From Natronomonas salinimetallica (GTDB taxonomy: Archaea; Halobacteriota; Halobacteria; Halobacteriales; Haloarculaceae), in contig NZ_JACDNQ010000007.1 of NCBI RefSeq assembly GCF_013839515.1, positions 81,090-115,758 of the forward strand: DNA of 34,669 bases. Direction: 5' to 3'. The translations under genes were made by a program, and so were the position numbers. Below the pieces are notes generated by a model that saw nothing but the letters and a program-made list of their open reading frames with translations, did not search any database and was not told the origin of the DNA. Positions 2,869 to 8,971 of the stretch are shown here, in pieces. How positions within the stretch are numbered: position 1 is the stretch's first letter; each line of letters opens with the position of its first letter.

Positions 2869-3242
2869 CGACGCGGAGAGGTGGGTAGCCGGGTCGGCAC
2901 CGGTGAGGCGTTACCCGCGCCGTGTTTTTATAAGAGAGCCCGAGAGCTGTTCGAATAGGTTTCCAACGGAGCCGGTGGCTCGATTTTGATTCCTCCTGCC
3001 CGATGCCAGCGGCGCGTATGACGCCGCACGCCCTCCGTCCTCGCCAGTGCCCTTTCCCTCGCCCACCCTCCCCTCGCACGCCCTCGATTTCGATGATGAC
3101 GGTCGATTCCTCGCGCGCCGAGGGGTGTCCAGTGCGCCGAGCTGTGCCCGCCGCTGTTGGACTCCCTCTCACGACACGCCGCCCTCGCCGGGGCGGCGCG
3201 GGCGGCTGGCTGTGTCACCAGGCTGACGCGCCCTCGCTCGCG
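2869..3242. other. Gene-poor spacer with a strong promoter-like element and short hairpin
   Basis: No convincing gene is seen. TTTTTATAAG at 2925-2934 is a good archaeal TATA box on the plus strand. A GAGCC-GGT-GGCTC hairpin at 2969-2981 followed by GATTTTGATT lies just after the expected transcription start (about 2957). The rest (about 3000-3240) is GC-rich, arginine-coding in every frame and looks non-coding. It ends abruptly where a YHS domain frame begins, so the backbone/cassette junction may lie near 3243. Confidence 0.45.
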
Positions 3243-3383
3243 CTCACGTGTGCCGAGTGCAACAAGACTGTCGATTCTGAGGGGAAGACGAGTCGTATCG
3301 GTGGAGAGATCTATCATTTTTGTTTCTCATCGTGCCAAAGTCAATTCGAAGAGCGACATCAGCGTCTCGAAGAAAGAGTGTAG
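3243..3383 (+). pseudogene. YHS/TRASH metal-binding domain stub lacking its own start
   Basis: The last 46 codons before the TAA read as a small YHS/TRASH zinc-ribbon-like domain: a CAEC pair, then GGEIYHFCFSSC (Cys-x3-Cys after an aromatic Tyr-His-Phe), then a charged helix ending QRLEERV. TRASH/YHS domains bind soft metals such as Cu or Hg in sensors, permeases and ATPases. Codons upstream of 3243 are in the same frame but encode an Arg/Pro-rich string with no family resemblance, and no ATG or GTG lies close to the domain. The possible start codons are at 3093 or further upstream. I therefore read it as a 5'-truncated remnant at the left edge of the copper cassette. It could still be expressed as a 97- or 126-residue fusion from the promoter at 2925. 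Confidence 0.5.
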
Positions 3384-3476: not shown

Positions 3477-6104
3477 ATGATGAAAACACGCACCGCACAT
3501 CTCGACATCACAGGGATGACCTGCGCCAACTGCTCGGGGACAGTTGGCGATGCCCTGGAGTCACTCGACGGCGTCGTCGAGGCGAACGCCAATTTCGCCA
3601 CGGACGAGGGCTCCGTCGAGTACGACCCTGACGAGGTATCGCTCGCAGATATCTACGAGACGATCGAGGACGCCGGCTACGGTGCGGTGTCGGACACGGT
3701 GACTATAGGCATCTCCGATATGACCTGTGCCAACTGTGTGCAGACGAACGAGACCGCACTCGAGAACACGCCGGGTGTTATCGCGGCCGAGGCAAACTTC
3801 GCCACCGACGAAGCGCAGGTCAGGTACAACCCCGCGGACACCTCACTCGACGCACTCTACGACGCTATCGAGGACGCTGGGTACTCGCCGGTTCGTGAAG
3901 ACGGCGACAGCGGTGAATCGGGTGCAGATGCTCGGGACGCTGCACGACAGGGCGAGATTCGAAAACAGCTTCGACTGACGCTGTTCGGAGCCGCGCTGTC
4001 GGCCCCGATGCTGTTTTTCCTCGCAGAGAAGTTTCTGCTCGGCGGGGGAATTCTCCCGGAGACGGTCCTCGGCGTCGAATTCGGGTGGGTCGAGTTCCTG
4101 CTGGCAACACCCGTTCAGGCCGTGCTCGGCTGGCCGTTCTACAAGAACTCGTACAACGCGCTGGTCAACAACAGGCGCGCCAACATGGACGTTCTCATCG
4201 CACTGGGTTCGTCCACTGCATATTTCTACTCCGTTGCAGTACTTGCCGGACTGATCGCGGGGAGCCTGTACTTCGATACTGCCGCGCTCATCCTCGTATT
4301 CATCACGCTTGGCAACTACCTCGAAGCCCGCTCGAAAGGGCAGGCTGGCGACGCCCTTCGGAAGCTCCTCGAAATGGAGGCCGAGACGGCCACCCTCGTC
4401 GACGAGGACGGCAACGAGACGGAAGTATCACTCGAAGACGCCACCGTCGGCGACCGCCTGAAGGTCCGTCCCGGCGAGCAGATTCCGACCGACGGCGTCG
4501 TCGTCGATGGGCAAAGCGCCGTCGACGAGTCGATGGTCACCGGCGAGTCAGTCCCCGTCGAGAAAGGCGAGGGCGACGAGGTCGTCGGCTCGACGATCAA
4601 CGAGAACGGCGTCCTCGTCGTCGAGGCGACGAAGGTCGGTGCGGACACGGCCCTCCAGCAGATCGTCCAGACGGTCAAGGAAGCCCAGTCGCGCCAACCC
4701 GACATCCAGAATCTGGCGGACCGTATCTCGGCATACTTCGTCCCAGCAGTCATCGCGAACGCGTTACTGTGGGGCGCTGTGTGGTTCCTCTTCCCCGAAG
4801 CGCTCGCCGGACTCGTCGAGTGGCTCCCGCTCTGGGGAGCGGTCGCCGGCGGACCAGTCGTGGCTGGTGGCACCGTCTCAGTCTTCGAATTCGCGCTCAT
4901 CGTCTTCGCGTCGTCCGTGCTGATTGCCTGTCCCTGTGCGCTGGGGTTAGCAACGCCGGCTGCAACGATGGTTGGGACGACGATCGGTGCCCAAAACGGC
5001 GTCCTGTTCAAGGGCGGTGACATCCTCGAACGCGCGAAAGACGTCGACACGGTCGTCTTCGACAAGACGGGTACGTTGACGAAAGGCGAGATGGAGCTGA
5101 CTGACGTCGTCGTCTTCGACGGTGACGGCCAACCTGTCGCGGACGGTGGGGATCCGGCAGCCGACGGCGGAGCGCTAACTGCACGCGATCGTCTCGGTGA
5201 GGACGACATCCTCCGATTCGCGGCGGCGGCCGAAAGTGGAAGCGAGCACCCGCTTGCGAGGGCTATTGTCGATGGAGCCGAAGCCCGTGGTATCGACGTG
5301 GCCGACCCGGACGACTTCGAGAACGTCCCTGGCCATGGCATTAAAGCGACCGTCGGTAACAGCGAGGTGCTGGTCGGGAATCGGAAGTTGCTCCGGGACA
5401 ACGGGATCGACCCCTCGCCCGCTCAGGAGACGATGGAGCGCCTCGAGAACGAGGGGAAGACGGCGATGCTCGTCGCCCACGTGCCCGCTGGCACGGACGA
5501 GGGCAAACCCGTCGGTGTGGTCGCTGACGCCGACACGATCAAAGAAAGTGCGACCGAGGCCGTGAGTCAACTGCAGGAGCGTGGCCTCGACGTGATGATG
5601 ATTACCGGTGACAACGAACGGACTGCTCGTGCCGTCGTCGAGCAGGTCGGCATCGATCCCGAGAGCGTCCGTGCAGAGGTGCTCCCCGAGGACAAATCCG
5701 ATGCCGTCGAGGCCATCCAGGACGAAGGTCGCAAGGCAATGATGGTGGGCGACGGCGTCAACGACGCGCCCGCACTCGCGGTCGCCCACGTTGGGACCGC
5801 CATCGGGAGCGGGACGGACGTCGCCATCGAAGCTGCGGACGTGACGCTAATGCGCGACGACCCGCTCGACGTGGTGAAGGCCATCCGTATCTCAGACGCG
5901 ACACTCCAGAAGATCAAACAGAACCTCGTGTGGGCGCTTGGTTACAACACGGCGATGATCCCGCTGGCCTCGCTGGGACTCCTCCAGCCCGTGCTGGCTG
6001 CCGGGGCGATGGCGTTCTCGTCGGTGTCGGTGCTGTCGAACAGCCTCCTGTTCCGCCGGTACACCCCCGACCACGACTACAAACTACTCGGGAGGTTCCG
6101 GTAA
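3477..6104 (+). CDS. copA: Cu+-exporting P1B-type ATPase (CopA)
   Basis: An 875-residue P1B-1 ATPase that pumps Cu(I) (or Ag(I)) out of the cytoplasm. Two N-terminal heavy-metal-associated domains carry GMTCANC and DMTCANC. The transmembrane CPC motif is Cys485-Pro-Cys487 in [12 protein letters not shown]. The phosphorylation site DKTGTLT has its Asp at residue 529, the nucleotide-binding SEHPLARAI motif follows, and [10 protein letters not shown] starts at Gly758. The last two membrane helices contain GYN and [14 protein letters not shown], matching the Tyr-Asn and Met-Ser-Ser copper site of the P1B-1 subgroup, which favours copper over zinc or cadmium. The length is typical. Two adjacent ATGs (3477 and 3480) are both possible starts. 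The gene is followed after 126 bases by a metal permease gene on the same strand, and a YHS stub precedes it. Confidence 0.93.
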
Positions 6105-6230: not shown

Positions 6231-7634
6231 ATGCAAGCCGCCCTCGTCGACGGAATCCTCGAGTCGCTGCGGATCGGCGTCGGTTTCCTCTGGACCGCCG
6301 CATGGGCGATCATCATGGGGCTCGTCATCACGAGTCTCGTACAGGTCTACGTCTCGAAGGAGCGGATGGCCCAGATCCTCGGAAATGATGACCTGAGTGG
6401 ACTCACCAAAGCAACGGTGTTCGGCGCCGCGAGTAGCGGCTGTAGCTTCGGGGCCGTCGCTATTGGGAAGGGGCTGTTCAAGAAGGGTGGTCACGTCGTG
6501 AACGTCCTCGCGTTCATGTTCGCCTCGACGAATCTCATCGTTGAGCTCGGTCTGATGATCCTGATCCTCCTCGGCTGGGAATTCTTGGTAGCGGAACTCC
6601 TCGGCGGCATCATCCTCATCGCCGTGATGGCGCTGCTCGTCCACGTGACGCTCCCCGAGAACCTCTTCGACGAGGTGCGGCAGGAACTGAACGAACGCGA
6701 TCAGGAACACGGTGTCACCGAGGATCCGACCTGCGGGATGGAAGGCAAAGACGAGTACTCGCTGACGACCGACGGTGGCGAGACGCTAAAGTTCTGCTCG
6801 GAAGGCTGTATGGAAACCTATGAGCAGGGGACCGCAAGTAGCGGCGGATGGCGCGATGAACTGCTCTCGTGGGGGGGCTGGTACAAAGTCGGAAACCAAT
6901 ACCGCAAGGAGTGGTCGATGATCTGGAAGGACGTCGTCGCGGGCTTTCTCATCTCGGGGTTCGTCATCGTGTTCGTCCCACAGTGGGTGTGGAACACACT
7001 CTTCCTCCAAGGCGATGGGTTGCTTGTCAGCGCGGAGAACGCGGTTATGGGCGTCACCGTCGCGGTTCTCAGCTTCGTCGGCAGCATGGGCAATGTCCCG
7101 TTCGCCGTCGCGCTCTGGGGCGGTGGGGTCAGCTTCGCGGGCGTTATTGCGTTCGTCTACGCCGATCTCATCACCATCCCCGTCCTGAACGTCTATCGGA
7201 AGTACTACGGCTGGAAGGTGATGCTGTACATCCTCGGAATCTTCTTCGTAACGATGGCCTTCACGGGCTTCCTCATGGAGTTGCTATTCGACGCCTTCGG
7301 CATCGTCCCGGATCTGGCCGGTGGCGAGACGGCGACCGAACAGACGTACTTCGAGCTCAACTACACCTTCTACCTCAACATCGTCGCGTTCGCCCTCTCT
7401 GGCTTCCTCCTCTACGTGTATCGACGTGGCCTCGGTGCTCCCGGCCAGTACCGCGATCCCGTCTGTGGGATGCGAACCGACGACAGTAGGCCGAGTCTCA
7501 CCCACGATGGCGAGACGTACTACTTCTGTTCGGACCGATGCAAGCGATCGTTCGAGAAGCACCCCTCCGAATTCGCACAGCAACACCCACCGGTCTCGGA
7601 GGCGGGAGCTTCCCAGAGCCATGAACATCACTGA
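6231..7634 (+). CDS. DUF318/SO_0444-type metal permease with two YHS domains
   Basis: A 467-residue membrane protein. Two homologous membrane halves contain AASSGCSFGAVAIG (Cys71) and VGSMGNVPFAVALWGGG (Met286), the re-entrant-loop motifs of the ArsP/DUF318 permease superfamily. A YHS domain beginning DPTCGM (residue 165, metal cysteines in FCSEGC) sits in the loop between the halves. A second begins DPVCGM (residue 409, FCSDRC) and is followed by a tail ending SHEHH. The family has been linked to Cu/Zn or organo-arsenical efflux. Given its neighbour CopA and soft-metal YHS ligands, copper or a similar ion is the likely cargo, but this is inference. I chose ATG 6231 over 6159 because the 24 extra residues are polar and unlike a transporter start, and CTTAAG at 6187-6192 could be its TATA box. 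Confidence 0.82.
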   Translation: MQAALVDGILESLRIGVGFLWTAAWAIIMGLVITSLVQVYVSKERMAQILGNDDLSGLTKATVFGAASSGCSFGAVAIGKGLFKKGGHVVNVLAFMFASTNLIVELGLMILILLGWEFLVAELLGGIILIAVMALLVHVTLPENLFDEVRQELNERDQEHGVTEDPTCGMEGKDEYSLTTDGGETLKFCSEGCMETYEQGTASSGGWRDELLSWGGWYKVGNQYRKEWSMIWKDVVAGFLISGFVIVFVPQWVWNTLFLQGDGLLVSAENAVMGVTVAVLSFVGSMGNVPFAVALWGGGVSFAGVIAFVYADLITIPVLNVYRKYYGWKVMLYILGIFFVTMAFTGFLMELLFDAFGIVPDLAGGETATEQTYFELNYTFYLNIVAFALSGFLLYVYRRGLGAPGQYRDPVCGMRTDDSRPSLTHDGETYYFCSDRCKRSFEKHPSEFAQQHPPVSEAGASQSHEHH

Positions 7635-8456: not shown

Positions 8457-8733
8457 TATACTCGCCGACCACGAAAACGAGGGAAATGACTCCCACTCTT
8501 GGAGCGCTCGCGAGCTGTGCCGGTCAGCTACCGGGCACCAGCGATGACGGTGGGCGTGAGGTAACGCCACGCTCGACAGTCATGTCCGAGCCAGATAGCT
8601 CCGTCAGCCTCACCGCGGGGTCCGGGACGGTTCGGCCAGCCCCCGAGACCTCGACGACTAACTGGATGTACGGGGATCAATTTCCGGGACCAGAATTACG
8701 GAAAATTCGAGGAGAAAGCCTCGCCGTTCACGG
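8457..8733 (+). pseudogene. Multicopper oxidase N-terminal fragment
   Basis: The frame from about 8457, with its first ATG at 8486, contains a lipobox-like LASC followed by a Gly/Thr/Asp-rich linker. It then has LTAGSGTVRPAPETSTTNW and YGDQFPGPELRKIRGESLAV. The QFPGPELR...GE pattern is the start of the first cupredoxin domain of multicopper oxidases (laccase/CueO type). The homology stops after ESLAV, where the HWHG copper ligands should follow about 15 residues later, and two hairpins begin at that point. No copper-ligand histidine motif is present, so the product cannot be active. Multicopper oxidases often accompany CopA in copper-resistance loci, so this was probably part of the same cassette. 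The twin-arginine signal is not visible. Confidence 0.6.
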
Positions 8734-8737
8734 CGTT

Positions 8738-8785
8738 AACGAGAGCGAAGCTCTCGTTCGTACACCAGAACGCTTCGCGTTCTGG
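8738..8785. repeat. Two adjacent perfect 9-bp hairpins
   Basis: AACGAGAGC-GAA-GCTCTCGTT (8738-8758) and CCAGAACGC-TTC-GCGTTCTGG (8765-8785) are both perfect stems with three-base loops, separated by six bases. They lie where the multicopper-oxidase homology breaks. Such hairpins occur at ends of IS200/IS605 elements and in haloarchaeal palindrome-associated elements. I see no transposase, so a small non-autonomous element or scar is the likeliest reading. Confidence 0.6.
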
Positions 8786-8971
8786 GGACGGAGATGAAGC
8801 CGACAACACCGTCACGATCGCCGGAATTAAGCCCCAGACAGCGTATCTGTGGGCGAGTACAACGGGCAAACCCTGGCGGTTGGATTGGGGTCCGCCCGGA
8901 CGGCGAAGGATCCGACGCGGCGGCGATGATCGCGAAACACGCCGCTCGACCGTGTTCCGGCCGATACCGAA

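Follow-up and report, generated by a model that had tools for sequence, protein, structure and literature searches.

Introduction

In the textbook picture, P-type ATPases move copper out of the cytosol. One of the permease families nearest to the protein considered here is the SO_0444 family: SO_0444, termed a copper/zinc efflux protein, is required for growth under Cu or Zn stress (PMC3219624), Cd and Cu induce a gene of the family (PMC10092412), and one member, with a UxC motif, is listed among selenoproteins (PMC13188914), in each case according to the available part of the report. The organoarsenical exporter ArsP is a two-half permease of the same Pfam family (PF03773) as this protein; its hairpin 1 carries a C(S/T)C motif, which the accessible text of one survey reports for all ArsP proteins surveyed (PMC4435449). 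In the arsenite carrier ArsB, as described in the portion available of PMC13381914, the As(OH)3 site is formed by the tips of hairpins 1 and 2 and by the broken-helix loops L1 and L2 (N111/D112, N158-L159-V160, N337-M338 and S380-L381-A382).

YHS domains have also been linked to copper. The YHS domain of a Mycobacterium phlei adenylyl cyclase responds to Cu2+ and is a probable Cu2+ sensor, and the accessible text of the same study already gives a haloarchaeal permease, Halovivax ruber AGB15007.1, as a YHS protein (PMC4626032), so that a YHS-bearing haloarchaeal permease is in print. Extracts of two further reports describe a COG0701 permease, which may not be of the YHS form, that is up in silver-exposed Haloferax alexandrinus (log2FC 3.49 at 0.5 mM; PMC10694973), and a COG0701 permease gene beside a copper module in an Arthrobacter insertion element (PMC6305408). 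We found no functional study, whether of mechanism, substrate or direction, of a permease with two YHS domains in the open-licence PMC literature. Here we analyse such a permease, encoded in a 34,669-nucleotide stretch of Natronomonas salinimetallica DNA (the window), for which a sequence-only reading had proposed a metal pore gated by the YHS domains.

Results

The gene encodes an ArsP_1 permease with two YHS domains

The open reading frame at 6231-7634 on the forward strand is uninterrupted over 467 codons. Its product matches ArsP_1 (PF03773) across residues 13-350 (E 2.1e-58; 198.2 bits against a Pfam gathering score of 32.3) and YHS (PF04945) in two stretches (E 1.1e-15; 57.8 bits for the whole protein against a gathering score of 30.3), the inner one at approximately residues 164-200, between the membrane halves, and the second at approximately 409-450, at the C-terminus. 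These matches, together with sequence conservation, rule out a chance reading frame; it is a real gene for a permease of the known ArsP_1 family, and the dual-YHS arrangement noted from the sequence alone is correct. The two motifs to which that reading drew attention, SGCSFGA (residues 69-75, including Cys71) and GSMGNVPF (residues 284-291, including Met286), lie one in each half (Table 1). A sequence search for PDB homologues of the membrane part found none, the matches being to the YHS region or to L24e, plus one weak unrelated entry.

Table 1. Coordinates of the permease, its parts and selected neighbours. Positions refer to the window, except in the last two rows, which refer to the locus named.
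Feature	Position	Strand	Basis or remark
CopA-like copper P1B-type ATPase, two HMA domains	3477..6104	+	Upstream of the permease; TIGR01511 543.7 bits, cut-off 397
Permease CDS, ArsP_1 and two YHS domains, 467 aa	6231..7634	+	Pfam; listed best matches 81-91% identical
Membrane half 1, residues 2-140	6234..6650	+	AlphaFold helices; repeat with half 2
Hairpin 1, residues 55-84, tip SSGCS; Cys71 at 6441-6443	6393..6482	+	AlphaFold; C71 in 63/63 unique sequences
Inner YHS, residues 164-200; D165, C168, C189, C193	6720..6830	+	Pfam; four residues invariant
Membrane half 2, residues 214-355	6870..7295	+	AlphaFold
Hairpin 2, residues 268-297, tip GSMGN; Gly284 at 7080-7082, Met286 at 7086-7088	7032..7121	+	Conservation, AlphaFold, repeat alignment
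C-terminal YHS, residues 409-450; D409, C412, C433, C437	7455..7580	+	Pfam; four residues invariant
MarR/winged-helix protein, hydrophobic N-terminal stretches and Met-rich loop	7758..8360	+	Downstream of the permease; Pfam
Two-YHS and one-YHS permease pair, L042	6001-7401 and 8381-9706
Two-YHS and one-YHS permease pair, L043	6001-7401 and 8380-9705

Similarity to the SO_0444 family profile (NF033936) extends over residues 22-381 of the permease, but the scores for this family (73.4 bits) and for the SaoE efflux transporter (NF040736; 64.5 bits) are below the respective equivalog cut-offs of 300 and 325, and the protein is assigned to neither. Nor does it carry the ArsP signature, since hairpin 1 reads C71-S72-F73 where ArsP has C(S/T)C. 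By our own analogy, the UxC motif of the SO_0444-family selenoprotein is a hint that a reactive residue lies close to the Cys71 site.

An Asp and three Cys are found in each YHS domain, as in the YHS copper ATPases and the M. phlei YHS adenylyl cyclase, which are linked to copper; in contrast to those proteins, this one has the domain twice and is a secondary permease. All eight residues (D165, C168, C189, C193 and D409, C412, C433, C437), which make up the sets proposed to bind metal, are invariant among 63 unique close sequences, drawn from the window and 80 related loci.

Modelling suggests an elevator-type carrier with cytosolic YHS domains

An AlphaFold model built from 29 sequences, those of the window and related loci, had a pLDDT of 69.8 and a pTM of 0.67. 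Each half of it has a long helix and an arm helix, then a hairpin (55-67/72-84 and 268-281/288-297), a broken helix (89-100/103-113 and 302-313/316-326) and a last helix (116-140 and 328-355); both YHS domains are folded, and an extra helix spans 376-399. The same membrane layout is seen in a second model (pLDDT 68.7), whose lead sequence is a relative with one YHS domain that is approximately 35% identical; the two are not independent because their alignments, both shallow, share most sequences.

When the models were compared with known structures using VIA-align, ArsB (PDB 10tp) was matched with Z 14.0 and rmsd 4.6 over 288 aligned residues by model 1, and with Z 13.8 and rmsd 5.1 over 314 by model 2. 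The corresponding values for VcINDY (4f35) were Z 12.3, rmsd 4.3 and 278 aligned residues, and Z 13.9, rmsd 4.5 and 286 aligned residues. YdaH, NaCT, TRAP and CNT structures are present in the lists of both models, and for model 2 rows 1-46 (Z at least 7.6) are nearly all from these or related elevator families, the next row having a Z of 4.8, although helical folds can reach similar Z values by chance. Foldseek returned no match at E ≤ 0.001 for either model (E above 0.01), and the fold assignment therefore rests on the VIA-align rows. An hhalign comparison with 12 relatives of CitMHS, one ion-transporter family, aligned the Cys hairpin with an SGFINNT hairpin, but the alignment is weak (E 0.022, probability 2%) and the attempt to prove membership of the superfamily by sequence through this family was not significant.

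The hallmark of the ion-transporter superfamily, two inverted halves that each contain a hairpin and a broken helix, is thus seen in the predicted models, and modelling of moderate confidence supports both the fold and the topology described below. These comparisons suggest that the permease is an elevator carrier of this superfamily rather than a channel; the two motifs would sit at the tips of the hairpins, in the predicted substrate site. It would share with ArsB the fold and the convergence of hairpins and broken-helix loops at that site; it differs in having a hairpin Cys and added YHS domains, in showing no significant sequence relation in our searches, and in that the model halves have fewer scaffold helices than ArsB as described in the available text of PMC13381914. 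Going by order and model, and not by residue alignment, the elements matching the ArsB site may be S68-S72, S99-T100-N101-L102-I103, G284-N288 and A311-D312-L313-I314.

Lysine and arginine account for 15 of 90 residues in the predicted inside loops against none of 64 in the outside loops, with loop limits chosen after viewing the model. Four membrane crossings separate the two YHS domains in the model, so both should lie on one side, and by the charge rule this is probably the cytosol, as had been supposed. We treat gated metal handover by the YHS domains as a hypothesis.

The permease gene lies in copper-themed neighbourhoods

Neighbours were counted in the best 80 of 203 relatives, with approximately 6 kb on each side, some of it cut; the cupredoxin part alone served as the plastocyanin query and the ATPase core alone as the ATPase query, and query families were checked by Pfam. 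A P-type ATPase was found in 50 of the 80 loci (44 with an open segment of more than 300 aa), and any copper gene, whether ATPase, HMA, multicopper oxidase, DUF326 or plastocyanin, in 67. SHOCT Met-rich proteins occur in 62/80, DUF302 in 31/80, plastocyanin domains in 27/80, HMA proteins in 17/80, multicopper oxidases in 12/80 and four-helix DUF326 proteins in 9/80, while a MarR-type protein is present in 42/80, always downstream on the same strand. Counting each unique permease once gives 62 groups, of which 33 have the ATPase and 49 at least one copper gene. The N. salinimetallica genome itself (2.78 Mb) has seven P-type ATPase places, from which approximately 3% of 12-kb flanks would be expected to hold one; the loci are related by plasmid transfer and not independent, so that a binomial significance for the ATPase pairing is overstated. 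The pairing is seen in at least one locus for 27 of 37 genus or strain labels.

Thirteen of the 80 loci showed no member of this copper gene set; at least five of them are short or cut by contig ends. Inspection by eye of seven of them (L096, L098, L103, L104, L105, L111 and L113) gave no consistent alternative theme; universal stress proteins recur in some, and L104, L111 and L113 have island-type genes (SHOCT, TRASH, DoxX). Annotated haloarchaeal plasmids are mostly copper-themed, one showing plastocyanin without an ATPase and another mostly hypothetical proteins and transposases.

Several neighbouring products have features of their own. The MarR-type protein downstream of the permease looks like a membrane-bound metal-sensing regulator; its loop MGSMMGTSMG..HG is conserved and was seen in all 17, of 24 unique sequences, that could be read throughout the loop. 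The piece at 8486-8797 reads as a multicopper oxidase stump: in an 83-residue alignment it is 64% identical to the N-terminus of an L045 protein of 471 aa that has all three Cu-oxidase domains, and its own Pfam score is 17 bits (below the cut-off of 21). A short reading frame at 3003-3383 ends in a match to the C-terminal TRASH domain of the HVO_1752 type (E 5.8e-21) after an unusual, low-complexity upstream part, and may be what remains of a copper regulator gene ahead of copA. Small SHOCT membrane proteins such as that at 2177-2548 of L094 have Met/Gly-rich stretches (MMGFGPMMGGMWGGGMWG) and are possible extracytoplasmic copper binders, and a plastocyanin-like neighbour (L145, 12341-13084) ends in a SHOCT domain by Pfam.

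We also examined bacterial relatives, in none of which a YHS domain was found, indicating that YHS is not needed for the core function. Copper genes are present in four of nine annotated bacterial regions, the other five having no clear copper theme; a tenth region carries no annotation. Three of the four belong to relatives with Gly284 and Met286, beside copA, cueR, SCO and multicopper oxidase genes in the first, P-type ATPase, PCuAC and SCO genes in the second, and CusA/TolC and DUF411 genes in the third; the fourth is a Cys-type relative beside P-type ATPase and multicopper oxidase genes. Among annotated bacteria with a readable motif, copper genes thus lie beside three of three Gly284/Met286 proteins versus one of four of the Cys type, which, the numbers being small, points to the Gly/Met type as the copper-linked form.

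These neighbourhoods support a soft-metal role complementary to CopA, as had been proposed. They also bear on direction. The permease might be an importer whose cytosolic YHS domains receive copper destined for plastocyanins, oxidases and multicopper oxidases, a reading consistent with the plastocyanin-domain (27/80) and multicopper oxidase (12/80) genes, with the occurrence of SCO, CcdA and cytochrome genes next to those of bacterial relatives, and with Na+-coupled importers such as INDY among the matched carriers. However, efflux ATPases are the commoner neighbours (50/80) and are accompanied by HMA, four-helix copper-binding and CusA genes, and SO_0444 behaves as a resistance gene in the available account (PMC3219624); we regard import as unlikely. 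Less probable still is export of organoarsenicals or metalloids in the manner of ArsP proper. The Pfam family is shared and ArsB is the top fold match of one model, but the C(S/T)C motif described in the accessible text of PMC4435449 is missing, and the window permease has copper rather than ars neighbours. No named ars gene appears in the annotated stretches around eight haloarchaeal relatives, whose tables are incomplete and include many hypothetical proteins.

The second hairpin carries a clade-specific exchange

Cys71 is invariant in the 63 close sequences, as are T100, N101, S285, N288, D312 and L313, whereas residue 286 is Met in 54 and Ile in nine. Counterparts of C71, S72, T100, N101, S285, N288, D312 and L313 are also invariant across the window protein and eight distant archaeal and bacterial relatives. 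A wider family set comprised 133 unique sequences, 88 with two YHS domains and 45 others, including the window's own and a few fragments, with the second motif readable in 130. Gly284 occurs with Met286 in 80 of these (77 two-YHS proteins and three proteobacterial proteins that lack YHS) and with Ile286 in 11; Cys284 occurs with Val286 or Ile286 in 39, and in none of the 130 with Met286. In 33 other ArsP_1 loci hairpin 1 is C-S-C in 27, of the one-YHS SSCSY type in four and neither in two; hairpin 2, aligned for eight such members, reads T-x-T-E-[VA]-P in five and differs in three.

Alignment of the profiles of the two halves (E 8.5e-5 in a single comparison, probability 60%) pairs C71-S72-F73-G74 with G284-S285-M286-G287. 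Together with the AlphaFold hairpins, this agrees with the sequence-only reading that SGCSFGA and GSMGNVPF lie on equivalent re-entrant loops. However, because the register sets Cys71 opposite residue 284, the site symmetric to Cys71 is 284, a Cys in related groups, and Met286 lies opposite Phe73. The composition of one thiol and one thioether is as stated, yet by this alignment the two positions are not equivalent.

A midpoint-rooted tree was made from 75 of 127 two-motif sequences (all 39 that are not two-YHS, all 11 Gly/Ile and 25 random Gly/Met). It joins the haloarchaeal two-YHS form with the YHS-free proteobacterial Gly/Met proteins (support 1.0), and separates this clade from two Cys groups, one actinobacterial and Paraburkholderia, the other haloarchaeal with one YHS domain. 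Since two-YHS and YHS-free proteins group together, the Gly/Met hairpin is independent of YHS. Met286 has changed to Ile at four places in the tree, or at fewer, as several nodes there have support below 0.8.

These results weigh on the pore that had been envisaged, in which a soft metal would pass between thiol Cys71 and thioether Met286 under the control of two gating YHS domains. Conservation speaks for it in part: Cys71 holds throughout, and Met286 is found in 54 of 63 close sequences and in three proteobacterial relatives. But Ile replaces Met286 in nine of the 63, at four places in the tree, so a required thioether is not supported; the repeat register pairs Cys71 with residue 284; and the predicted fold is of the carrier type. 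Of the two residues whose lack of conservation was to count against the proposal, Met286 varies and Cys71 does not. A strict Cys/Met pair is thus unsupported, and a channel-like pore seems improbable.

Two-YHS permeases are widespread in Halobacteria

The permease has matches at E ≤ 1e-3 in 249 of 391 Halobacteria genomes, some of them solely to the YHS domain. The best match is below 1e-150, the level expected of the two-YHS form, in approximately 148 of the 391 (counted by hand, and possibly in error by a few). It also matches 144 plasmid records, 50 of them at 80-95% identity; a search of viral contigs for diverse relatives gave 107 pattern stretches and no relative. The two-YHS permease is thus a widespread haloarchaeal variant, with one YHS domain inserted, one appended and a clade-specific hairpin change.

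Haloarchaeal ArsP_1 permeases with one YHS domain (for example in L118 and L147) are approximately 35-40% identical to the window protein and have YHS at the same insertion site, but they are without the C-terminal YHS and have Cys284 and Val286 where the window protein has Gly284 and Met286. In five loci (L041, L042, L043, L045 and L082) permeases of the two kinds are at most approximately 5 kb apart, and their sharing of an island suggests that they have different jobs. Elsewhere in the N. salinimetallica genome (C23:193298-194187; L003 and L004), two adjacent ArsP_1 matches both fall on the N-terminal half of the profile (14-153 and 7-140), and are perhaps half-size permeases or a broken gene.

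Discussion

The domains, the conserved motifs, the clade-specific hairpin change and the copper neighbourhood are observed directly, and on balance we lean towards an ArsP_1-family secondary exporter of a soft metal, most likely Cu(I) or Ag(I), with an ion-transporter-superfamily (ArsB/INDY-like) elevator fold, encoded beside CopA; substrate and direction of export are our inferences. The silver induction of the H. alexandrinus COG0701 permease is suggestive, though that permease may not be of the YHS form. In such an exporter, two inverted halves would each contribute a re-entrant hairpin and a broken helix, and four tips (S68-S72 with Cys71, T100-N101, S285-N288 and D312-L313) would form one substrate site. 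An ion gradient would probably power the sliding of this site from one face of the membrane to the other, with the coupling ion a matter of conjecture. The cytosolic YHS domains might bind copper, whether to load the site while it faces inward or to serve as an occupancy switch, and the permease would work in parallel to CopA.

We put forward more tentatively a fuller version, in which an ATP-independent, ArsB-like elevator exporter of Cu(I) or Ag(I) in haloarchaeal copper islands has exchanged the hairpin thiol Cys284 for Gly with Met or Ile, and the two cytosolic YHS domains are copper sensors or donors that license each cycle. Export of a copper-thiolate or other sulfur ligand, or a redox-stress relay, in place of transport of the metal itself would fit a single hairpin thiol in a site that is polar rather than sulfur-rich, and the DoxX, thioredoxin-family and TauE-type neighbours of some loci, but the YHS domains argue for metal contact and, with no direct support found, we consider this the least probable reading.

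If the permease is indeed a soft-metal exporter, a widespread secondary permease, often plasmid-borne and with its own predicted copper-binding modules, would give haloarchaea a second means of resisting copper. Ligand choice within one fold could readily be compared between the natural Cys284/Val286 and Gly284/Met286 forms, and the YHS-free bacterial relatives would offer a way to probe the role of YHS by removal.
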